Of a stretch of DNA of 49,190 nt, positions 107-46,398 are shown piece after piece. The notes below the pieces were generated by a model. It ran no database searches. It was given only the letters and a program-made list of their open reading frames with translations, and was not told the origin of the DNA. Within the stretch, counting starts at the first letter, position 1. Each line of letters opens with the position of its first letter. Origin of the DNA: an uncultured Candidatus Berkelbacteria bacterium (GTDB taxonomy: Bacteria > Patescibacteriota > UBA1384 > XYA2-FULL-43-10 > CAINNR01); the NCBI GenBank assembly GCA_903851235.1, contig CAINNR010000026.1:1-49190 (forward strand), written 5' to 3'. Both the position numbers and the translations under genes were made by a program.

Positions 107-2932
107 TTGCAATTAAGCCAAATCCGAGCTTATCCCTCCGAGAAAATTCATGCCAAGGTCTATATTATGACCTTCGCCGAGGATGATCGAGACAAAGGCA
201 GGGTTATCACTGGTTCTAGTAACTTCACCCAATCTGGTCTAGTCGATAACCTCGAATTTAATGTCGAGCTAAAAACCCGATCTGACTATGACTTCGCCCA
301 GAATAAATTCAATGAACTTTGGCAAAATGCCGTTGATGTAAGTGAAAAGTATGTCGAAACAATCCAAACCAAAACTTGGCTTTCTAATGATGTCACTCCT
401 TACGAACTCTATCTGAAGTTTCTATATGAATATTTTAAAGACGAGCTCAGCCAGAATGACGAAGTCTTTATGAAATATTTACCACCTGAATTCAAACGAC
501 TCGAGTATCAAGAACAAGCAGTCTTAAACGCCAAGAAAATTCTTGGGGAATACGGCGGAGTTTTTATCTCCGATGTTGTTGGGCTCGGTAAAACCTACAT
601 CTCGGCAATGCTCGCCAACCAGCTTGAAGGACGAACGCTGGTTCTCGCCCCTCCTGTTCTTTTGGAAAAAAATAATCCTGGTTCTTGGCCAAATGTATTC
701 GAGGATTTTCAGGTTAGACAAACCCACTTTGAATCGATCGGCAAGCTGGATAGTTTAATTGAATCTGGCACGGACAAGTACACCAACATTATTATCGATG
801 AAGCCCATCGATTTAGAACTGAAAATAATGTCACCTACGAGAAACTGGCTGAAATTTGCCGAGGGAAAAGAGTAATTCTAGTTACCGCAACCCCATACAA
901 CAATTCGCCAAAAGACATTTTAAGTCAAATTAAACTTTTTCAGAAAACACGAAAGAGTACTATTCCTGGCATGCCTGATTTGGAGCGATTTTTTAATGGT
1001 TTAGATAGAAAAATTAAGGACATGGATCGCCAAAAGGATTTTGAAAAATACATACAAAATGTTAAAGATAACGCTCAGGAAATTAGAGAAAAAGTGCTTA
1101 AGCATTTAATGGTCAGACGCACTCGAGCTGAAATTATGGCCTTCTTCGGCGAGGATCTCAAAAAACAAAACCTTAAATTTCCTGAAGTCGAAAAGCCGGA
1201 GCCATGTTTCTACGAACTCAACGATCTCGAAGACAAGATTTTTTCACAAACAATTGAGCTTATCACCAGGCATTTCAAATATGCCCGATATACGCCCATG
1301 CTCTATTACAAAGGAGAGCTATCTCAGCCGGAACTATTGGCTCAAAAGAACATGGGCAAATTCATGAAAATCTTGATGATTAAACGACTGGAAAGTAGCT
1401 TCTTTGCTTTTAGGCAAACTCTAGGCCGCTTCGCCCATTCTTACGAGCAGTTCATCGACGAGCTGGATGCCGGGAATGTTTATGTTAGCAAAAAATATAC
1501 CAATAAAGTTTTTGAATTCCTTGAAAATGATGACGATGTCGCAATTCAACGACTAATTGATGAAGACAAAGCTCAAAAATATGAAAGCAAAGATTTCAAA
1601 GTTGAATTGAAACAAGATCTCCAAAGCGATCTGGATACCCTAAAACAGATTCAAGACTTATGGCAGGAGATAAAAAGAGATCCCAAACTTGAATCCTTGG
1701 TCAAAAATATCAGCACAGAACCAGTTCTTAAGGAAAACAAGATCATTATCTTTACCGAATCAAAGGAAACCGCTTATTATCTGGAAAAGAATTTAAGCCA
1801 AAAATTCCCTGACGAAGTTCTTTGCTACACCGGAGAATCAAGTTCGGCTGTTAAGGATAAGGTAATCGATAATTTCGACGCCAAAGCTCGCAACCAAAGC
1901 GATCAGTTTAAGATCTTGATTGCCACTGAAGTATTGTCGGAAGGTGTAAACCTTCACCGCTCCAATGTGGTCATTAACTATGATATCCCATGGAACCCGA
2001 CCAGAATGATACAACGAGTTGGGCGTGTAAATAGAATTGATACCAAGTTTGAAAGAATTCATACCTTTAACTTTTTCCCGACTAAACAAGCCAACGACGA
2101 GATCAAACTCAAGGAGGCTGCCGAAGCTAAAATTAATGCTTTTATCACTTTGCTTGGCGCCGATGCTCAGCTTCTAACCGAGGGAGAGCCAATCGAACAG
2201 CATGAACTGTTTAACAAATTAACCTCCAAGTCCACTCTTACCGGCGAAGACGGTCTCGATAAAAGCGAGCTCAAATACCTAAGATTGATCAAGGATATAC
2301 GAGATAAGGAACCTGGAACATTCGAGAAAATAAAACGTTTACCCAAAAAAGCCAGAACAGCCAAACAATCCGACAAGATGTCAGAGTCGGTCATCACTTA
2401 TTTCCGACGAGGCAAACTGCAGAAATTTTACGCAGCAGGTGCCGAAAGAGATTCTGCGGAAATTGATTTTATTTCAGCCGCCGAAATACTAGAATCAATC
2501 AAGGAAGAAAAGAGAGAATCACTACCAGAAAACTTCTTTGAGATTTTAGACAAGAACAAGCAAGCATTCATCTTTTCGACCACCGAAGATATCGAAGAAG
2601 CTAATCTGCGAGGCGGCCGCGACAGTGCCACCCAAGTACTTAGAATAATTAAAGCAACTCTTAAAGATCGTCGACAATTCACCGAAGAGCAAGAGCTTTA
2701 CCTAAAAAAGATCATGGTTCAGCTAGAAGAAGGTGGATTACCCAAGCAGACCTCGAAAGAAGCCCTCAAGGCGGTACAAGAGGAAATACAGCAAGGCATT
2801 AACCCACTTAGAATCCTGGCGGTTTTGCAAACTAAAATTCCAGAGAAACTTCTCGAAAAGCACTTTGCCGAGGATCAGAGCCTGACTTTTGGTAAAAGAG
2901 AAGTAATTCTCTCGGAGTACTTAATGAAATGA
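107..2932 (+). CDS. PLD-nuclease/SNF2-type helicase, 5' end missing
   Basis: The protein is a predicted DNA helicase/translocase of a restriction or defence system. The first ~60 residues are the end of a phospholipase D-like nuclease domain (HAK near residue 15, GSSNF near 37). A superfamily 2 helicase core follows: GLGKT Walker A near 158, DEAH near 231, TATP near 260, and the C-terminal lobe with GVNLHRS and RVGRVNR near 613-642. PLD-helicases of this type normally carry a complete PLD domain before the HxK motif, so 100 or more residues appear to be absent. The frame opens just after a TAA at 80-82 and offers only a TTG at 107 without a Shine-Dalgarno site, so the gene is truncated or joined to foreign sequence at the window edge. 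The stop overlaps the next ATG by 4 bases, indicating translational coupling to the methyltransferase. Helicase assignment is firm; the role in defence is inferred from context. Confidence 0.85.
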   Translation: MQLSQIRAYPSEKIHAKVYIMTFAEDDRDKGRVITGSSNFTQSGLVDNLEFNVELKTRSDYDFAQNKFNELWQNAVDVSEKYVETIQTKTWLSNDVTPYELYLKFLYEYFKDELSQNDEVFMKYLPPEFKRLEYQEQAVLNAKKILGEYGGVFISDVVGLGKTYISAMLANQLEGRTLVLAPPVLLEKNNPGSWPNVFEDFQVRQTHFESIGKLDSLIESGTDKYTNIIIDEAHRFRTENNVTYEKLAEICRGKRVILVTATPYNNSPKDILSQIKLFQKTRKSTIPGMPDLERFFNGLDRKIKDMDRQKDFEKYIQNVKDNAQEIREKVLKHLMVRRTRAEIMAFFGEDLKKQNLKFPEVEKPEPCFYELNDLEDKIFSQTIELITRHFKYARYTPMLYYKGELSQPELLAQKNMGKFMKILMIKRLESSFFAFRQTLGRFAHSYEQFIDELDAGNVYVSKKYTNKVFEFLENDDDVAIQRLIDEDKAQKYESKDFKVELKQDLQSDLDTLKQIQDLWQEIKRDPKLESLVKNISTEPVLKENKIIIFTESKETAYYLEKNLSQKFPDEVLCYTGESSSAVKDKVIDNFDAKARNQSDQFKILIATEVLSEGVNLHRSNVVINYDIPWNPTRMIQRVGRVNRIDTKFERIHTFNFFPTKQANDEIKLKEAAEAKINAFITLLGADAQLLTEGEPIEQHELFNKLTSKSTLTGEDGLDKSELKYLRLIKDIRDKEPGTFEKIKRLPKKARTAKQSDKMSESVITYFRRGKLQKFYAAGAERDSAEIDFISAAEILESIKEEKRESLPENFFEILDKNKQAFIFSTTEDIEEANLRGGRDSATQVLRIIKATLKDRRQFTEEQELYLKKIMVQLEEGGLPKQTSKEALKAVQEEIQQGINPLRILAVLQTKIPEKLLEKHFAEDQSLTFGKREVILSEYLMK

Positions 2933-5900
2933 TTAAAGATGCAACCAAGCAGATCATAAAAAGAACTCTGCAAAGCTCTTTCGACAAAGAGCAATTTTTA
3001 AATTTCACCAAGAATCTTCTCAATCACATCAATGAAGACAAGGCATTTCACGCCCATGGGTATGTCAAAGAGCAATTCAAAAAAACGGCCAACATTATTA
3101 AGACTTACGAACGGCTTGGTACTTATACCGATCCAAACGAAAAGAAAATTGATATTTTGGTTGTTTATTTAGAGAAAGATAATTCTATCGATCGGGCACG
3201 AACATCACTTCGAAATTTTGTAGCCGATTACCTAAAGGGGCGCGACCAAAAAGACGCTGCCTTGGTTGCCTTCGTTAGCCCAAGCCAAGATGATTGGCGT
3301 TTTTCTCTGATCAAAATGGAATATAAGTTCGAGGAAGGCAAAAGCGGCAAGATGAAAGTTAAGGAAGAATTCACTCCCGCTCGTCGTTGGTCATTCCTGG
3401 TTGGTTCAAAAGAAAGTTCTCATACGGCTCAAAGCCGTTTGGCTCCGATACTCGAAGACGATGATAGTAACCCGACGCTTGAGCAGCTCGAAGATGCCTT
3501 CAATATTGAAAAAGTTACCAAAGAGTTCTTCGAGAAATACCGAGAGCTATTCTTGAGGTTGAAAGATAATCTGGACGAGATGGTCAAAAACGATACCAAG
3601 ATCAAAGCCGACTTTGCCGAAAAAGATGTCGACACGGTGGATTTTGCCAAAAAGCTACTAGGCCAGATTGTCTTTCTCTACTTCCTGCAAAAAAAAGGCT
3701 GGTTTGGCGTTGAACGAGACGCGGATTGGGGCACTGGTCCGAAAGATTTTTTACGCCAGCTTTACTCGGAGAAACACTCTAAGTACAAAAACTTTTTTAA
3801 CGAAATTTTGGAGCCGATGTTTTACGAGGCTCTGGCTCGAGAGCGAGACGACGATTATTATGGCAGTTTTAATTGCAAGATCCCTTTTCTTAATGGCGGA
3901 CTTTTTGATCCGATCGGTAACTACGACTGGGTTCACACCGATATCAATTTAGATAACGAACTATTTTCGAATTCACGACCGACCAAACAGGGCGATATTG
4001 GTGATGGTATTCTTGATATTTTTGATCGCTATAACTTCACGGTTAGAGAAGACGAGCCACTGGAAAAGGAAGTGGCAGTTGATCCTGAAATGCTCGGAAA
4101 AGTTTTCGAAAACCTTCTTGAAGTTAAGGATCGTAAATCCAAAGGTACTTACTATACTCCCCGAGAGATTGTCCACTATATGTGTGAGCAGAGTTTAATA
4201 AATTATTTAGCTACAGAGCTACCAGAAGTTACCAAAAATGATCTAGAAGAGTTTATTAAAATTGGCGATCAAGTTCTGGAAAACGAGTATTTGGTGACTC
4301 AAAAAGACAGTGGCGAGGGCTCAATGATTCCCGCTTCGATAAAGGAAAATGCCAAACTCATTGATCAGAAACTAGCAGATATAAAGGTTTGCGATCCGGC
4401 CATCGGCTCGGGTGCTTTCCCTGTTGGCATGATGGGCGAAATAGTTACTGCTCGATTATCTTTGAATCCCTTCCTCTGTCATTCAGGCCTTGATCCAGAA
4501 TCTAGTTCTCTAGAATGTGCTGGCAGAACCGCTTACGATTTCAAAATGCAGGCAATAACAAATTCTATTTATGGTGTTGATATCGATCCTGGTGCAGTTG
4601 AAATTGCCAAACTTCGTCTTTGGCTTTCGTTGGTAGTAGATGAGAATGATATTAAACAGATCAAACCGTTGCCGAACTTAGACTACAAGATTATGCAAGG
4701 CAATAGTTTGCTCGAAGAATTCGAAGGTATCAAGCTTTTCGATGAAAGTATTATTCCCCAAGATCACGCCGATCGAGAAGCACAAATTGTCAAAGCCAAT
4801 GAGAAAATCAATGAGCTTCAAAGGGAATTCTTTAGACTCCACTCAAAAAATGCGTTATCAAAATCACAAGAACAGCTGATCAAACAGCAAATTAAAGGTC
4901 AGCAAAAACTTATTCAAAGTTTGCAAGAGAAACCCAAGCAAGGTGGCACCGTTGATTTATTCAATAAAATCGACGAAATTAAGGCCAGATGGGACGAACT
5001 CACAGAACTTCATAAGAAGATCGTCAATGAAAGCAATCGGCAAGAGAAAACGCAAATGCTTGATCGAGCATCTGAACTCGAATGGCAATTCATCGAGGCG
5101 ACTTTAAAGCGCGAGTGTAAACCTGAGTCACTGAAAAAAATAGAGCAATTCAAAAAGAAAAATACCAAGCCATTTTTCCTCTGGCATCTCCATTTTGCCG
5201 ATGTATTTCAATCTAAAAGTGGTTTTAATGTGGTAATTGCAAATCCCCCTTATGTTAGTGCATGGTCTATGGAAAAAGAAGACCCAAATATGCGCCCCGA
5301 GATTAAAAGTGCCTTGAAGAATTACTCTATATTAGTCGGGCATTGGGATCTCTATATAGCATTTGTAGCTAAAGGTCATGATATCTTGAGTAATAATGGG
5401 AGTATGTCCTATATTGTCCCAAATCCAATATTGAGAGAGAAATATGCAAAAGAGACAAGAGAATTTCTGTTAACTCAAATGCGAATAGCATCGCTATTAG
5501 AGTTTAACGACACAAATGTTTTTGATGGAGTTGCTCGAAGGACTACTGTTTTAGTTGCTAAGAAAGGTGAAGATAAGTCAAACTATAAAATAGATATTCA
5601 TAGTAATAAAGACTCGGATATCATAGGGCTCGTAAAAAACATTGAAAGAGATAATTGGCTTAGTCACCCCAGTCATTCTTTTCTTATTGATAGCAGTGAT
5701 GAGAAGGATGATCTCATTGTTAAGATTGAAAAACAATCGGAGAGAATTGGTAATTTTTTCTATGTAAACTATGGAGCGCAGGTTTCAAGTAAAGATAAGG
5801 GTGGTTTTGGCAAAAAAGATGTTGTAAGCAAACATCCAGTTGGCAACGCAAAGCCATATTATGAAGGGAAAGATATTCAGCGATGGAAGCTTGCGTCCAG

Positions 5901-6456
5901 GAACCTGTGGCTGGACTATCGTCCAAAAGAAATGTATGGTCCCCGACATCCATCATTATTTGAGCAGGAAAAAATAGCGATACGAATGATTTCTGATAAA
6001 GGTCATGCTCTAGCAGCTGTGTTAGACGAGACCGGCCGATACTCAAATCATAGTGTTGTTCTTATCGCTCCATACCACGGTCTCAGAGATACAGATCTCA
6101 GGAGTGATTTTGATGACTTTAAGCACATCGATGCAGATATAGATATACATTACGTATTAGCAATAATATTATCCAAGCTAGAGAGTTTCTACTTCAAGAA
6201 AAGATTTGCAACAGAAAGTCTGCAAGGTTCGACATCACATACTTACCCAACTGCCGTGAGGGGCCTTGTAATAAAAAATATCAGTAAGGCAGAACAAAAC
6301 AGCTTCGTCACAATTGCTGATCAAATTTTAACTTTAAAAAAACAAAATAAAGACACGGATACCAAAAATCTCGAATCTCAAATTGACCAAATGGTCTACA
6401 AACTTTATGGGCTTACACCTGAAGAGATAAAGATCGTTGAGGGTTCGAATGGATGA
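2929..6456 (+). CDS. Eco57I/PglX-like N6-adenine DNA methyltransferase
   Basis: Predicted to methylate adenine in DNA using S-adenosylmethionine. Motif I is DPAIGSGAF near residue 490, and the catalytic motif IV is NPPYV near 773. The segment GVDIDPGAVEIAKLRLW after motif I is typical of Eco57I-class enzymes. The C-terminal third contains a TaqI-type target-recognition signature (YYEGKDIQRW near 977). A coiled-coil-rich stretch lies between motifs I and IV. At 1175 residues it matches long type IIG, PglX or DrmMI-like methylases, but no nuclease motif is visible in it; nuclease and motor functions would come from the upstream PLD-helicase. A short foreign-looking insertion sits between motif I and the GVDIDPG segment. 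It overlaps its neighbours on both sides (4 bases upstream, 8 downstream), so the three genes form one transcription unit. Methylase identity is firm; the exact system type is not. Confidence 0.9.
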   Translation: MIKDATKQIIKRTLQSSFDKEQFLNFTKNLLNHINEDKAFHAHGYVKEQFKKTANIIKTYERLGTYTDPNEKKIDILVVYLEKDNSIDRARTSLRNFVADYLKGRDQKDAALVAFVSPSQDDWRFSLIKMEYKFEEGKSGKMKVKEEFTPARRWSFLVGSKESSHTAQSRLAPILEDDDSNPTLEQLEDAFNIEKVTKEFFEKYRELFLRLKDNLDEMVKNDTKIKADFAEKDVDTVDFAKKLLGQIVFLYFLQKKGWFGVERDADWGTGPKDFLRQLYSEKHSKYKNFFNEILEPMFYEALARERDDDYYGSFNCKIPFLNGGLFDPIGNYDWVHTDINLDNELFSNSRPTKQGDIGDGILDIFDRYNFTVREDEPLEKEVAVDPEMLGKVFENLLEVKDRKSKGTYYTPREIVHYMCEQSLINYLATELPEVTKNDLEEFIKIGDQVLENEYLVTQKDSGEGSMIPASIKENAKLIDQKLADIKVCDPAIGSGAFPVGMMGEIVTARLSLNPFLCHSGLDPESSSLECAGRTAYDFKMQAITNSIYGVDIDPGAVEIAKLRLWLSLVVDENDIKQIKPLPNLDYKIMQGNSLLEEFEGIKLFDESIIPQDHADREAQIVKANEKINELQREFFRLHSKNALSKSQEQLIKQQIKGQQKLIQSLQEKPKQGGTVDLFNKIDEIKARWDELTELHKKIVNESNRQEKTQMLDRASELEWQFIEATLKRECKPESLKKIEQFKKKNTKPFFLWHLHFADVFQSKSGFNVVIANPPYVSAWSMEKEDPNMRPEIKSALKNYSILVGHWDLYIAFVAKGHDILSNNGSMSYIVPNPILREKYAKETREFLLTQMRIASLLEFNDTNVFDGVARRTTVLVAKKGEDKSNYKIDIHSNKDSDIIGLVKNIERDNWLSHPSHSFLIDSSDEKDDLIVKIEKQSERIGNFFYVNYGAQVSSKDKGGFGKKDVVSKHPVGNAKPYYEGKDIQRWKLASRNLWLDYRPKEMYGPRHPSLFEQEKIAIRMISDKGHALAAVLDETGRYSNHSVVLIAPYHGLRDTDLRSDFDDFKHIDADIDIHYVLAIILSKLESFYFKKRFATESLQGSTSHTYPTAVRGLVIKNISKAEQNSFVTIADQILTLKKQNKDTDTKNLESQIDQMVYKLYGLTPEEIKIVEGSNG
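4474..4526 (+). repeat. REP/RPE-like palindromic element inserted in frame in the methyltransferase
   Basis: The segment encodes CHSGLDPESSSLE, which resembles the translated form of dispersed palindromic repeats found in many bacterial genomes. It contains the inverted repeat TCTAG-TTCT-CTAGA. It lies between methylase motif I and the conserved GVDIDPG block, where related enzymes have only a short linker. The insertion keeps the frame open. A GGATTCCCGC-type hairpin at 40323-40342 looks like the other half of the same repeat family. Confidence 0.55.
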
Positions 6457-40813: not shown

Positions 40814-41845
40814 CTACTGTCCTTTATAGATCACATAATTGAAAATATCGAGTACTGTGCCGGTTTGACGATCAACGTTGGCACTGATTTGGCGCGAGTT
40901 GCCGGCGAAATAGCCGGTCGACTGAATTGTTGTCGCCAAGCCGGAAGTTAGTCTTTGATTAGTTCCCCCCGGTGTTTTTTGAGTAAATCCAAAATAAATT
41001 CCATCATTCATGCCCCCGACCGGCTTCAAAGTCATTTCGGTTGTATTTTTGCTGATACTGATCGTGTCAACAAATACTCCGATATTGCCACCGGGCGCAA
41101 TGGTGGCATTTTCGGCATTGGCGATTTTTGAACATCGCAGGTCTTGAAGCAAGGTTGTTTGTTCGTCACCATCGGAATCCTTCAATTTTACCTCCAGGGC
41201 TCGTGATTTTTGCAGAGGTGACGAAGGTGAATCGTTGCAGGTGGCTGTTGTCGTAAGCCATCGCCAATAAAGATTGATCGTGCCGGTGTTCGTGGCCGGT
41301 AAATCAGAATTGACGGTGAAAGCTATAGAATTATCTTTGGCGATTTGGTAAAGGCTGTTTGTGGTTTTTGCCAGATCGTTACCGTCAATTTTGCCGTCGC
41401 CGTTGACATCGTCGCCGGTGAAAGCTTGTTTATAATAAGATTGCAAATCATAAACCTGGACTCTATCCGACAGCGAATAACTGCCGCTGATGCCGCTGTC
41501 GATGGTTGTCTTTCTCATTGAGTTTAAATCTAAAAAATTGCGATAAAAATTCGTCGGCCGGCGAAAAAGTCCATTCGAGCCGACTTTAGTTGTAGCAGCC
41601 GAATCGATAGTTGTCGGAATTTCGGCATTTTTATCATATTTGTTATACAAAAGTCCCTGTTCCAAACCGGATTCGGCGGCATAATAGGCGACCAAACCAT
41701 TGTTGTAAGTTTCGGCGATGTTGACTTGGCGAAAGGCGATAGCGGTGACGCCGAGCGCCGCCGAACCGATAATCGCCGCCAGCAAAATCGCCACGACCAG
41801 CGCCTCACCTTTGCGTTTTTTTAATTTGTTGATTTTGTCGTTCAT
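40814..41845 (-). CDS. Type IV pilus PilX-like minor pilin with EF-hand/dockerin loop
   Basis: A 343-residue protein with an N-terminal pilin-like hydrophobic helix (EALVVAILLAAIIGSAALGV) and the AYYAAESGLEQGL stretch typical of PilX/GspK-like minor components. The large C-terminal part is beta-rich and extracellular. In the middle, DVNGDGKIDGNDL is a perfect calcium-binding loop of the dockerin/EF-hand type. It should sit in a pilus or pseudopilus tip, perhaps stabilised by calcium. The start overlaps the stop of the HU-fusion gene by 4 bases. Confidence 0.7.
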   Translation of the reverse strand: MNDKINKLKKRKGEALVVAILLAAIIGSAALGVTAIAFRQVNIAETYNNGLVAYYAAESGLEQGLLYNKYDKNAEIPTTIDSAATTKVGSNGLFRRPTNFYRNFLDLNSMRKTTIDSGISGSYSLSDRVQVYDLQSYYKQAFTGDDVNGDGKIDGNDLAKTTNSLYQIAKDNSIAFTVNSDLPATNTGTINLYWRWLTTTATCNDSPSSPLQKSRALEVKLKDSDGDEQTTLLQDLRCSKIANAENATIAPGGNIGVFVDTISISKNTTEMTLKPVGGMNDGIYFGFTQKTPGGTNQRLTSGLATTIQSTGYFAGNSRQISANVDRQTGTVLDIFNYVIYKGQ

Positions 41846-42603
41846 ATTCGCTGTGCAATTAATTGGTTACCGAACGGCGTTAATTTTCGCGTCAGCTTGA
41901 TTCGATCGCTGCCGAAAAGCAGTAACTCGTTTGATCCTCCGGCCAGCGACTCGATTTTCTCGACAATTACCGAGTGAGTATCCTTTGGTAGTGATCGCTG
42001 GTTTTTGGTTTCCGAACCGGAGAAATATAAAATTTTTGTTTCCGTTCTGTCGGGTGAAATTTCCAACTTATCGGCGCCAAAGGTTTTCATTAGGGTAAAA
42101 ATTGATTTAACGAATTTGGAAATCGGTGAATTTTCATCGGTTAAATAGGACTTTGATTTGCCGCGAAAATTGATTTTAATTTCACACAAATCGGTTTTTT
42201 CCATCGGCGGGTTATCGTGAACACCAACATCTTGCGCTAAAACTTCCGGTAGTTTGTCTTCAAAACTGGCATTGCCGATTAACGCAAGGTATTCATCGGC
42301 CGAAACCTCGCTTGAAGTGCCGCGGACACGGATTTTGCCCGACGGATGCCATTTGACGACATCGGTTGGTGGCATAAAAAAGGTTTTGTTATCGCCGCGC
42401 GGACTGTTAATTATTTTGGCGCCAAAGCGGACAACCTCAAAACTGCCAAAATTTGATACAATCAAATTACGATCGCGGGAAAGACCCTCGGACATTGATT
42501 CCGAAATAGCGTTGATTAATTTTTCGGCCTTTTCAACATTAAACTCAATATCGGCGGCTTTCATTTCCTTTGCCAATTGTGAGGCGAATTTGTCTTTGGT
42601 CAT
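41842..42603 (-). CDS. HU/IHF-family domain fused to a GspE/PilB N-terminal-like domain
   Basis: A 253-residue protein. Residues 1-95 are HU/IHF: KDKFASQLAKEMKAADIEFN, NFGSFEVVRFGAK and SPRGDNKTFFMPP are the helix, signature and arm regions. After a linker, residues ~150-253 contain KTFGADKLEISPDRTETKIL and LPKDTHSVIVEKIESLAG, which follow the pattern of the domain just before the motor in type IV pilus ATPases (GASDIHIEP, RYRIDG, LPKELH, RIKxLA). No Walker motifs are present. Translational coupling to the PilX-like gene supports a link to pilus function. Binding of DNA by the N-terminal half is expected from the family; the fusion partner is my inference. Confidence 0.6.
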   Translation of the reverse strand: MTKDKFASQLAKEMKAADIEFNVEKAEKLINAISESMSEGLSRDRNLIVSNFGSFEVVRFGAKIINSPRGDNKTFFMPPTDVVKWHPSGKIRVRGTSSEVSADEYLALIGNASFEDKLPEVLAQDVGVHDNPPMEKTDLCEIKINFRGKSKSYLTDENSPISKFVKSIFTLMKTFGADKLEISPDRTETKILYFSGSETKNQRSLPKDTHSVIVEKIESLAGGSNELLLFGSDRIKLTRKLTPFGNQLIAQRI

Positions 42604-42860
42604 TAAATTAACACATAATTAACAACGAATAACCGGAATCAAATAACTGGTTAACTTTATAATAGCAAAATATCGGCAGGTTGTCTTTTGGTCATTAATT
42701 GTTAATAAAGCTGTTGATAAGCTGGGTATGAATTTCCTTAAGTATTAATAATTGTTCCTGCAGTAATATAGAATTTGAAATGCGGATTTTTTTTATCGGT
42801 TTACAGTTGCCCGATTGTTGTATTGTTAAAACATCGACTAAAAATTTAGCTAGTTTTTTT
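42604..42860. other. AT-rich region between HU-fusion and dnaX with DnaA-box-like sites
   Basis: No gene is seen; dnaX starts at 42861. TGTTAATAA at 42700-42708 and TGTTGATAA at 42712-42720 are reverse complements of TTATTAACA and TTATCAACA, close to the DnaA box, in the same orientation and 12 bases apart. TTGTTA-18-TAGCTA (42823-42852) is the likely dnaX promoter. Confidence 0.4.
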
Positions 42861-44474
42861 ATGAGTCTTTACAGAAAATACCGGCCGCAAAAATTTGCCG
42901 ACTTGATTGGCGAGGATCACATCCGCGACACTCTGCTTTTGGCTGTCCGGGAAAATCGAATCGGCCAAGGTTATCTTTTTGCCGGCCTTCGCGGTACTGG
43001 TAAAACTTCGGTTGCCAGGCTTTTAGCCAAGGCGGCAAATTGCCAAAAACGAGACGAAATGAACAAATCCGGCAGTGGTGAACCGTGTTTGGAGTGTCAG
43101 AGCTGTAGGGAGATAATTCAAAACAAAAGTCTCGACATTATCGAAATTGATGCCGCTTCGAATCGGGGGATTGATGAAATTCGCGAATTGCGTGATCGGG
43201 TGAAGTTTGCGCCGTCGAGCGGAAAATATAAAGTTTTTATTATCGACGAAGTTCATATGCTAACGATGCCGGCGTTTAACGCACTGTTAAAAACCTTGGA
43301 AGAGCCGCCAAAACACGCGATTTTTATTTTGGCGACGACGGAAGCGCACAAAGTACCGGCAACGATCCTTTCCCGCGTTCAACGCTTTGATTTTCGACGA
43401 ATCGGCAAGGCTGATATCATTAAAAATTTGATGTTGATAGCGAAAAGTGAGAAGTATAAAATCAGCGACGAAGCATTGGAGGCGGTTGCCGTTGCCGCTG
43501 ATGGTAGCCACCGTGACGCCATATCAATTTTGGAACAGCTGGCATCCGATTCGGCTGAAATTTCGATTGAGAGCGTTCGCATTACCTTGGGCTTGGCTAG
43601 AAGCGAAGAAATCATCCAATTAATTTCAATGATCGTCGAAAATCAGCGGCAGGAAGCGATAAAAATCGTCGGCGAATTTATTGAAGCCGGTGTCGAAGCG
43701 AACCAGATTATCAAAGAGATAATTGAAATTTTGCGTCAGTCGCTGTTAATAAAAATCTCTGCAGGTGAGGTGAGTTTCGATCAAACGAAGGAGAGGATGA
43801 CAGAATTATCAAAGTTGGCTGAGAAATTTACCCCAGGCGAATTGAACAAAATGCTAACAATATTTATCGAGGCCGGCCAACTTTTGAAGGATTCACCGAT
43901 TCGAACCCTGCCGATTGAAATGGCGATTATTGAAGCGGCGGAAATATGTCAAAAGTCAGAAGTCAACCCGTCTCGCCTGGCGCGAGCCGAGGCGGAAAGC
44001 CAAAACGACAACTTAAAAGTCAAAATTGAAACAATTGAAATTGCGGAAGAAAATCCAAAGTCCGGAATTCGAATATCAGATGAAGTTCAAAACTCAAAAT
44101 CTGAATCAGCAGTCGAACAGTCGAGTAGTCGAACAATTAAAGTTTTGGATGATCAATCATGGAAAACCATTTTGGAGAAAATTAAGGAACACAACCACAC
44201 ATTAAATGCTCTATTGCGCGACGCCAAACCGGAGGGAATTGACGGCGACCAAATTGTTATCAGTGTTAGATTTAAATTCCATCACGATAAAATTACTGAG
44301 GTCAAAAATCGTCAGGTTTTGGAACAAATTTTCTCTGACGTTTTGGGCCGAAAGTGTTTTATCAAATGCCAAATCCAGGACAGAAAAAAAACCGAAGTCA
44401 GAAATCAGAAATCAGAAACAGTGGAGGGAGAAGACCTGGAGAAGGCGGCGAAGGAAATGTTTGAGACAGAATAA
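42861..44474 (+). CDS. dnaX: DNA polymerase III gamma/tau subunit
   Basis: Clamp-loader ATPase of 537 residues. Recognisable elements are SLYRKYRPQKFADLIG at the N-terminus, Walker A GLRGTGKTS, the zinc module (C, then CLECQSC), DEVHMLTMPAFNALLK and the sensor 1/arginine-finger block TTEAHKVPATILSRVQRF. The ATG at 42861 is preferred over 42780 because it starts the conserved MSLYRKYRP; a -10-like TAGCTA ends eight bases upstream and there is no Shine-Dalgarno site, so the mRNA may be leaderless. The linker near residues 370-430 contains low-complexity KSGIRISDEVQNSKSES-type residues that derive from an AT repeat. The C-terminal domain V is short. Confidence 0.96.
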   Translation: MSLYRKYRPQKFADLIGEDHIRDTLLLAVRENRIGQGYLFAGLRGTGKTSVARLLAKAANCQKRDEMNKSGSGEPCLECQSCREIIQNKSLDIIEIDAASNRGIDEIRELRDRVKFAPSSGKYKVFIIDEVHMLTMPAFNALLKTLEEPPKHAIFILATTEAHKVPATILSRVQRFDFRRIGKADIIKNLMLIAKSEKYKISDEALEAVAVAADGSHRDAISILEQLASDSAEISIESVRITLGLARSEEIIQLISMIVENQRQEAIKIVGEFIEAGVEANQIIKEIIEILRQSLLIKISAGEVSFDQTKERMTELSKLAEKFTPGELNKMLTIFIEAGQLLKDSPIRTLPIEMAIIEAAEICQKSEVNPSRLARAEAESQNDNLKVKIETIEIAEENPKSGIRISDEVQNSKSESAVEQSSSRTIKVLDDQSWKTILEKIKEHNHTLNALLRDAKPEGIDGDQIVISVRFKFHHDKITEVKNRQVLEQIFSDVLGRKCFIKCQIQDRKKTEVRNQKSETVEGEDLEKAAKEMFETE

Positions 44475-44568: not shown

Positions 44569-46398
44569 ATGACGAAATCAAAAAAACACAACCAAATAAT
44601 CGGTGCCAAATTGCCACCGCAGAATCTTGAAGCCGAAACCGCCGTTGTCGGCGCGCTTTTGATTGACAAGGATGCGATTTTATCGGTTGTCGAACTGTTA
44701 TCGGCCGAGGATTTTTATGATGATCGCAATGCAACAATTTTTCGGGCGATCGAAACATTATTCGAAAAACGAACGCCGATTGATATGGTAACGATCACCG
44801 ATCAATTGGAGAAGGAAAAAGAGTTGACTAATGTCGGCGGGAGTAGCCATATTGTTTCAATCGTCAACTCAACGCCGTCGGCCGCCAATGTTGTTCATTG
44901 GGCGAATATTGTTCGCAACAAAGCGATCCTTCGAAGATTAATCACTTCTGCCGTGACTATTTCCGATCTTGGTTTTGATGAAGAGGATGATGTAACATCA
45001 GTTTTAGACAAAGCCGAACAGTCGCTTTTTGCCGTATCGCAAAAATTTTTTCGGCAAAAATTTATTCCGATCAAAGATGTTTTGACCGAGGCTTTCGATC
45101 GAATTGACAAAATTCACAAAGAAAAAGGTGCCTTGCGTGGACTTTCAACCGGTTTCCGTGATTTGGACGCCAAACTTGCCGGTTTGCAAAAATCCGATCT
45201 GCTGATATTAGCTGCCAGACCATCGATGGGAAAAACTTCGCTGGCATTAAATATCGCTGAGCAAATTGCCGTCGAGGAAAAGATTCCCGTTGCCTTCTTT
45301 TCGCTGGAAATGTCAAAGGAACAGTTAGTTGACCGCTTAATTTCATCGCAGGCCGGCGTTGACTCTTGGAAACTCCGGACCGGAAATTTGTCAGACGAAG
45401 ATTTTCCGAAAATCGGTTACGCCATGGGAACATTATCCGAGGCGCCATTTTTCATTGATGATTCGCCGGGATTGACGGTGACGGAAATTCGAGCCAAAGC
45501 CAGGCGGTTGCAGATGGAACAAAATCTCGGCGTGATCTTTGTCGATTATTTACAATTGATTGAAGGCCGATCGAAATCCGGCGACGCCAACCGTGTTCAG
45601 GAAATCTCCGAGATCTCCAGGTCGCTAAAAACCTTGGCTCGCGAACTGGACGTGCCGGTGGTGGCATTATCACAACTTTCCCGCGCCGTTGAACATCGGC
45701 CGGACAAGCGACCGCAACTTTCAGATTTGCGCGAATCGGGATGTCTTTCCGGTGACACATTAATTTTTGATGCCGAAAATGGCAATCGAATCGCAATCAA
45801 GGAAATTGTCGGCAAAAATGATTTCAAGGTTTTGGCACTCAGCCAAAATGGCAAATTAGCCAAAGTTTCCGCTTCGAGAATTTTTTCAACCGGAAGGAAG
45901 AAAGTATTTGAAATTTTGTTTGCTAGTGGTAAAAAAATTAAAGCAACGGCGAATCATAAATTTCTTACTGTCGGTGGCTGGAAAAGACTGGATGAACTTT
46001 CAATCAAGAACGATAAACTTGCAACGATCGATACATCGTTAAATCATCAGGATTTATTCGAGTCAGATATTTTTTGGGACAAAATAATAAATATAACGCC
46101 ACTTGGTGCGGAAGAAGTTTATGATATTTCAGTGCCTAAGGAACATAATTTTGTTGCCAATGATATTATTGTCCACAATTCGATCGAACAGGACGCAGAT
46201 GTTGTGATGTTCATTTACCGCGACGATTATTACGACGAAAATTCGGATAAAAAAGGTGTAACAGAAATTCTAATCCGCAAACATCGAAACGGTCCAATTG
46301 GTAATGTTGAACTCTATTTCAACGCCGAACAGATGCGGTTTCGCGATTTGGCCCGAACTCCAAAATCCGGCCCGTCAGATTTCGGCCCTGAAGATTAA
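44569..46398 (+). CDS. dnaB: Replicative DNA helicase DnaB with mini-intein
   Basis: A 609-residue precursor; the mature helicase would be 463 residues, the usual size. The N-terminal domain (PPQNLEAETAVVGALLIDKD) is followed by the RecA-like core: Walker A ARPSMGKTS near 220, VIFVDYLQLIEG near 325 and VVALSQLSRAVE. The intein starts at residue 392, after LRESG, and ends before SIEQDAD, so it interrupts the highly conserved ATPase C-terminal motif, and splicing is required for activity. AAGGAT precedes the ATG. It lies ~100 bases after dnaX on the same strand. Confidence 0.97.
   Translation: MTKSKKHNQIIGAKLPPQNLEAETAVVGALLIDKDAILSVVELLSAEDFYDDRNATIFRAIETLFEKRTPIDMVTITDQLEKEKELTNVGGSSHIVSIVNSTPSAANVVHWANIVRNKAILRRLITSAVTISDLGFDEEDDVTSVLDKAEQSLFAVSQKFFRQKFIPIKDVLTEAFDRIDKIHKEKGALRGLSTGFRDLDAKLAGLQKSDLLILAARPSMGKTSLALNIAEQIAVEEKIPVAFFSLEMSKEQLVDRLISSQAGVDSWKLRTGNLSDEDFPKIGYAMGTLSEAPFFIDDSPGLTVTEIRAKARRLQMEQNLGVIFVDYLQLIEGRSKSGDANRVQEISEISRSLKTLARELDVPVVALSQLSRAVEHRPDKRPQLSDLRESGCLSGDTLIFDAENGNRIAIKEIVGKNDFKVLALSQNGKLAKVSASRIFSTGRKKVFEILFASGKKIKATANHKFLTVGGWKRLDELSIKNDKLATIDTSLNHQDLFESDIFWDKIINITPLGAEEVYDISVPKEHNFVANDIIVHNSIEQDADVVMFIYRDDYYDENSDKKGVTEILIRKHRNGPIGNVELYFNAEQMRFRDLARTPKSGPSDFGPED
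45742..46179 (+). other. DnaB mini-intein (146 residues, no homing endonuclease)
   Basis: It begins with CLSGDTLIF (Cys1, block A) and contains GKKIKATANHKFLTVGGW (block B with TxxH). At the end it has EEVYDISVPKEHNFVANDII (blocks F/G) and HN, followed by Ser as the +1 nucleophile. No LAGLIDADG or HNH block is present between the B and F blocks, so it is a natural mini-intein. The insertion point (RESG/SIEQDAD) is the same as that of the Synechocystis DnaB intein. Confidence 0.95.

Follow-up and report, generated by a model that had tools for sequence, protein, structure and literature searches.

What does a gene that joins an HU-type DNA-binding domain to part of a pilus motor do, and how did it come to lie beside dnaX? 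The question is raised by a short gene, here called HU-N2, in the window (the whole analysed stretch of 49,190 nucleotides, contig CAINNR010000026.1 of an uncultured Candidatus Berkelbacteria bacterium). The coordinates of the gene, its domains and its neighbours are collected in Table 1.

Table 1. Features at the HU-N2 locus (positions in the window)
Feature	Coordinates	Strand	Remarks
HU-N2 gene	41842..42603	minus	ATG start at 42603; 253 aa; frame without internal stop
HU/IHF domain, residues 1-95	42319..42603	minus	Pfam PF00216; arm proline P68 kept
Linker, residues 96-157	42133..42318	minus	low pLDDT; replaces linker and MshEN of full-length relatives
PilB/GspE N2 domain (predicted), residues 158-253	41845..42132	minus	profile and predicted fold; motor comes next in relatives
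PilX-like minor pilin gene (putative)	40814..41845	minus	ATGA overlap with HU-N2; orthologues at the locus in families f1 and f3
dnaX, divergent neighbour	42780..44474	plus	conserved start probably the inner ATG at 42861
dnaB, adjoining dnaX	44569..46398	plus	looks intein-bearing, by inspection

Domains of the HU-N2 protein

HU-N2 is a single-copy gene in a search of its own genome (about 1.04 Mb, 39 contigs, 98% complete), in which a separate plain HU gene lies on contig C38. The HU-type DNA-binding domain claimed in the initial annotation is borne out by Pfam: residues 1-91 match Bac_DNA_binding (PF00216) with an E-value of 7.2e-10 (39.4 bits against a cut-off of 22.4), and residues 1-45, the helices of the AlphaFold2 model, match HU/Hbb/IHF structures with a Z of 5-6 (VIA-align). 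Among 12 HU domains that were compared, F52, G53 and F55 are invariant and P68 is at least 90% conserved. The window protein has P68, the beta-arm proline, which in HU and IHF is the intercalating residue.

Beyond the HU domain, the protein gave no Pfam or NCBIfam match above the cut-off. MshEN had no Pfam match at E-values up to 10, and the linker is only about 60 aa long; pLDDT in the AlphaFold2 model is low over residues 82-149, and low values mark the latter half of HU as well as the linker. The motor core (Walker A, Asp box, Walker B and His box) is absent, the chain stops at the end of N2, and no T2SSE match was found at the locus in the window.

The C-terminal domain is shared by four orthologues, all from the window's family (f1), and the other three are 63, 38 and 39% identical to the window protein. 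It turned out that the profile of these four is collinear with the N2 domain of the four HU-less PilBs of the same genome (score 32.1) and with that of six HU-PilBs from relatives (score 38.4), while the best of 50 column shuffles run against the own-PilB profile reached 19.4. The HHalign probabilities were modest (22% and 57%) because the alignments are shallow. AlphaFold2, with four sequences only, modelled residues 151-253 at pLDDT 67-89 (in blocks of ten), and a Foldseek search against the PDB gave 19 matches at E ≤ 0.001, every one of which is a GspE, EpsE, PilB or PilF. VIA-align superposed residues 158-253 on residues 180-288 of Geobacter PilB (5tsh_C) with a Z of 14.6 and an rmsd of 1.8 Å over 96 residues. 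By profile and predicted structure, the C-terminal domain of HU-N2 is the N2 domain of the GspE/PilB family. The proposal that residues ~150-253 resemble the domain preceding the motor in GspE/PilB is upheld by the profile score, the predicted fold and the relatives that carry the full HU-MshEN-N2-motor protein at this gene position, and the structure comparison returned the very match on which this proposal had been staked. The description of the domain as ATPase-like was overstated: the N2 fold stands, and there is neither a motor nor MshEN. A further candidate for this domain, RpoY (the epsilon subunit), had Pfam E-values of 0.014-0.023, below the cut-off, and was displaced by the N2 match.

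Of the N2 residues that do not vary among working motors (SDxH, RxR and PQDGR), nearly all are gone in all four f1 proteins, in which both RxR arginines and the PQDGR loop are missing and the fold is predicted to be intact (AlphaFold2, VIA-align). Since the ATPase core is absent and these residues are nearly all lost, HU-N2 is not regarded as an ATPase.

Neighbouring genes and full-length relatives

The stop of HU-N2 and the start of the PilX-like gene share the ATGA at 41842-41845. The 4-nt overlap is repeated in the same-genus relative. In the family's two remaining genera the pilin gene also comes next, without a clear overlap. The gene order is found in 4 of 4 members. The PilX-like orthologue of the same-genus relative approached PilX_N below the cut-off (E 0.018, 15.5 bits against 25.5), no PilX_N match was found in the window's own PilX-like protein or in four other orthologues, and the AlphaFold model of the PilX-like protein is poor (mean pLDDT 37). 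Translational coupling to a pilin, as first annotated, is thus matched by the ATGA overlap, and the neighbour is a likely, if weakly supported, pilin.

On the other side, the DnaB ORF (609 aa) appears on inspection to be interrupted, between DLRESG and SIEQDAD, by an intein some 145 aa long. DnaB of the same-genus relative has 463 aa without an intein, and the ORFs at other dnaX-dnaB loci of the class range from 618 to 879 aa; from these size differences, the putative intein comes and goes.

In a first search of 61 genomes, 15 had a match, and outside the window's family this was mostly HU on an ORF of 600-907 aa. These full-length relatives read out as HU, linker, MshEN, N2 and a complete PilB motor, with PF00216, PF05157 and PF00437 above the Pfam cut-off in 10 of 10 scanned proteins, and the linker between HU and MshEN ranges from about 17 to 270 aa. 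The relatives of the window protein in named genomes come from two Candidatus Berkelbacteria MAGs and one Patescibacteria MAG, in agreement with the CPR origin first proposed.

The survey of the fusion across CPR genomes that had been suggested was then carried to the class, where 12 HU domains served as queries against 50 genomes of at least 80% completeness (G034 came from the phylum survey alone). The gene family was found in 32 of the 50: 24 have a full-length PilB, 4 have the short form of the window's family (4 of 4 members) and 4 have another short form (families f22 and f25). For the loci we read 33, with G009 (71% complete) added to the 32; G047, in which the HU stretch is broken by the contig start, was left uncounted. 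In the window's order the family is present in 10 of 11 genomes, and the eleventh is 81% complete. A class-wide fusion of HU to a complete PilB is larger than what the initial annotation could see.

At the level of the phylum, a survey of 380 genomes with an HU plus MshEN profile gave 12 stop-free matches entering the HU part (query start 21 or lower), all of them in the window's class among the matches listed. No HU-PilB fusion was found outside the class among these matches, which reach to about E 1e-21, and very divergent fusions could fall below that level. G166, the sole candidate from outside the class, was rejected as a fusion: its match starts in the HU part of the query and crosses a stop, and its PilB reads without HU. 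With HU alone as the query (285 genomes), only plain HU genes appeared outside the class among the matches listed, which reach to about E 6e-14, so weaker fusions would escape this search.

The loci share a common layout. Upstream DNA of at least 1 kb is available for 31 loci, and in 27 of these, motorless ones included, dnaX is divergent within 1 kb; it lies at 3 kb in one further locus and is unseen in three (G014, G045 and G052), while G009 and G017, with less than 100 nt of upstream DNA, were not counted. PilC follows within 630 nt downstream of all 21 testable intact HU-PilBs (G034, G048 and G002 were uncounted, their downstream DNA being too short). It follows at none of the 9 loci whose motor is degenerate or missing and whose downstream DNA extends to 1.8 kb or more. 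At none of the 33 loci was PilT found within 9 kb or up to the end of the contig or stretch. An origin from a plain HU gene near dnaX was considered and rejected, as none of 33 plain-HU loci (32 genes, flanks of 1.5 kb or less) has dnaX, dnaB, pilB or pilC.

In a quick tree of 42 motors, a branch with SH-aLRT 96 has 16 of the 17 HU-less PilBs on the same side. The degenerate motors have long branches in this tree, which omits the 924-aa double motor oth_G004_C27 and the PilBs G006_C10, G004_C24 and G006_C26. The presence of HU takes two changes on it, and the HU fusion may have a single origin. The seventeenth HU-less PilB (L161 in G022) is divergent from dnaX, has PilC next to it and groups with the HU-PilBs; from this position and grouping, it is an apparent loss of HU.

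Other genes were seen at some of these loci. In three f3 loci (L020, L022 and L025) the degenerate HU-PilB is separated from the PilX-like gene by a CheY-like response regulator, and at L024 a similar CheY-like regulator is near PilN/PilO.

Motor loss and selection on the retained domains

The four motor motifs are intact in 22 of 25 HU-PilBs. The exceptions belong to f3: all four motifs are gone in G008 and G009; in G005 the GxxxxGKT loop and the Asp box EDP remain, and neither the Walker B glutamate nor the His box is left. Within one order, a decay series can be read from intact motors (f2 and f4) through degenerate ones (f3, three relatives) to absence (f1), the window's family, in which motor, MshEN and the neighbouring PilC are all gone. 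Other motors are encoded elsewhere in the window's genome, by two PilT-type genes and by four HU-less PilB-type genes whose motifs are intact. Throughout the order, each genome gave one or more further T2SSE matches (a fragment in the 81% complete G010).

For selection on what is left, we compared the window gene with that of the same-genus relative. The HU domains are 71% identical, the N2 domains 69% and the linkers 42%; in HU and N2, third codon positions differ at 0.47-0.52 and positions 1 and 2 at 0.12-0.29. By this codon pattern, purifying selection acts on HU and N2 in the window's genus. HU is less conserved than any other domain in four pairs whose motors are intact (HU versus motor identity 57 versus 72, 62 versus 86, 93 versus 96 and 64 versus 79%). 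The one degenerate-motor pair (G008 and G009, same genus) has HU as the best conserved domain (65% versus 48% for the motor). This reversal, seen in one pair only, would fit a function that is shifting from the motor to HU.

Short proteins are also found in f22 and f25 (four genomes, 249-312 aa), and three of the four genes are divergent from dnaX. The region after HU scored 30.3 against the HU-PilB N2 profile (best of 50 shuffles 24.6), only 23.0 against the own-PilB profile, and gave a partial match of 42 columns to the f1 domain; the proteins have an ending pattern similar to N2. These comparisons are suggestive of a second motorless group. A motor gene of another kind was seen in G004 (L149, C27:5713-7917), in which a 924-aa frame has two consecutive T2SSE matches, the first full length and the second covering 6-298 of 370 (a PilT-like extent), possibly a double-motor fusion.

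Explanations for HU-N2 and HU-PilB

The explanation we prefer, tentatively and at less than an even chance, is that HU-N2 descends from a DNA-tethered pilus motor and has been reduced to a DNA-binding adaptor or regulator. Its ancestor would be the class-wide HU-PilB gene divergent from dnaX, whose product carries HU on a flexible linker before a pilus extension motor. HU dimers may bind chromosomal DNA and in this way tether or regulate the motor of a type IV pilus with a PilT-less locus. The window's family has shed the motor, MshEN and the neighbouring PilC and has retained HU and the N2 fold; what remains would be a DNA-bound adaptor or regulator that HU keeps on DNA and whose non-catalytic N2 makes a protein contact. 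The partner of N2 would most likely be a component of another pilus or the product of the coupled PilX-like gene. Because the N2 residues that are invariant in working motors are lost, HU-N2 is not proposed as a normal subunit of other motors; their loss from the f1 proteins, RxR and PQDGR included, speaks against entry into another motor's ring in that capacity.

On the side of the full-length protein, the long and variable linkers between HU and MshEN would suit a leash. In Thermus PilF, according to the excerpted text of PMC6145873, each N2 is rigidly joined in a unit with the motor domain of the next subunit. ATPase activity does not require the N-terminal domains, which do affect transformation and twitching; a new N-terminal module on such a motor is therefore mechanically reasonable, as far as this excerpt goes. 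The wider claim, that a pilus motor is leashed to the chromosome by HU throughout the class and that at least two lineages have kept a motorless HU-N2 linking or signalling the nucleoid to pili driven by other motors, we regard as doubtful at present.

The net charge of the HU domain varies among families. In the window's order it is +4 to +14 with the arm kept, and the window's own HU is mildly basic (+4), with some arm arginines of plain HU replaced; f22 and f25 have +9 to +19, again with the arm kept, and f18 has +1 to +6, against +10 to +16 for the plain HUs of these genomes. The four HU domains read in f10 and f17 have charges of -6 to -10 and a shortened or altered arm, on proteins with intact motors. 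From sequence, DNA binding by HU is plausible in the window's order and is unlikely to be universal across HU-PilBs; as f10 and f17 have intact motors with an acidic, short-armed HU, that motor does not seem to need DNA binding everywhere.

A second explanation is that HU-N2 is a local nucleoid-associated or transcription factor, which would bind the short stretch between dnaX and its own gene and regulate dnaX as well as the pilin operon. It would then not touch a pilus machine, and N2 would serve only for dimerisation or stability. We consider this possible, if on the unlikely side. It would explain why the divergent dnaX is retained without a motor (7 of 8 motorless loci have it, across windows of 89-431 nt), and it agrees with the strongly basic HU of the motorless f22 and f25 and with the loss of the catalytic residues of N2. 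However, HU and IHF domains as a rule have little sequence specificity, and a link with pili is indicated by the coupled PilX-like gene and by descent from a motor.

The acidic, short-armed HU domains on the intact motors of f10 and f17, and the low conservation of HU in the four intact-motor pairs, lead to another explanation: that HU has lost DNA binding and become an oligomerisation or docking module, which aids the assembly of the PilB ring or its docking to the platform, HU-N2 being a leftover scaffold. For the CCDC81 group, it has been proposed that the HU folds have a function other than on DNA, and Pfam carries such models. But HU is basic and has its arm in f1-f4 and most other families, the arm proline is kept in the window's order, and long variable linkers fit a leash better than a rigid scaffold; this explanation is unlikely in our opinion.

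That HU-N2 is a functionless, decaying relic would account for the lost motor, MshEN and PilC and for the long branches of the degenerate f3 motors, but it is improbable given a frame that has stayed open in 4 of 4 members of the family, which are 38-63% identical, the codon pattern of purifying selection, the PilX gene order kept in 4 of 4 and the likely second retention in f22 and f25.

DNA uptake, the role first suggested for the gene, would have HU receive or pull incoming DNA at the pilus base. No ComEC (PF03772) match was found in the window genome (G000, 98% complete; an assembly gap is possible), and the same search found ComEC in 48 of 55 genomes of the class, among them that of the same-genus relative. 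With ComEC this widespread, no association is demonstrable, and co-occurrence with it was set aside as uninformative. ComEC and pili are commonly encoded in CPR bacteria (excerpt of PMC6744442), and mutations in the N-terminal domain of Thermus PilF affect transformation (work cited in the excerpt of PMC6145873). The PilT-less T4P-2 pilus of TM7x is, in the excerpted text of PMC12206443, needed for host binding and dispensable for competence, its mutants remaining competent. With this report, the missing ComEC match, no PilT at any of the 33 loci and no motor in HU-N2, the uptake role goes unsupported and is very improbable.

Compared with known systems, the window protein shares the N2 fold with PilB/GspE (PF00437 and MshEN PF05157; Geobacter PilB 5tsh, Vibrio EpsE 1p9r), and its relatives share MshEN, N2 and motor with an adjoining PilC; in contrast, the window protein has neither MshEN nor motor, and the relatives add an N-terminal HU. 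The N-terminal domain is like the nucleoid protein HU/IHF (PF00216) in profile, arm, arm proline and basic charge, but it is fused here to a pilus-motor domain, and the arm motif of the full-length relatives is altered (YPSKxI..P). HU serves likewise as a fusion module in the HU-HIG and HU-CCDC81 groups (PF18291, PF18175 and others), and some HU domains of HU-PilBs exceed the Pfam HU-HIG cut-off; the partners named in those models are wHTH, Ig, glycine-rich regions or CCDC81, whereas a pilus motor is absent there. A parallel in layout is T4P-2 of TM7x (Saccharibacteria), also a patescibacterial locus of PilB, PilC and PilM/N/O without PilT. It adjoins recAX as the HU-PilB locus adjoins dnaX, both being DNA-metabolism genes; however, the excerpt of PMC12206443 reports no HU domain for it.

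The motor family and HU are each known, and as far as our searches go their fusion and its motorless product are undescribed: no description of either was found in the open-licence PMC literature, in titles and the starts of abstracts. To our knowledge, pilus motors are pictured as membrane-side engines without a link to DNA. The joining of HU to a whole motor in the relatives suggests that some pilus machines may be tied to the cell's DNA, and its place beside dnaX makes it testable whether the chromosome anchors or controls the pilus base of these tiny epibionts. Besides, the apparently repeated loss of the motor from proteins that retain HU and N2 is a natural deletion series, which shows which part was worth keeping.

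Elsewhere in the window, a 941-aa SNF2-like helicase with a PLD-like start lies beside a 1175-aa protein with adenine-methylase-like motifs (107-6456, plus strand), and by inspection this gene couple looks like a restriction or defence pair.
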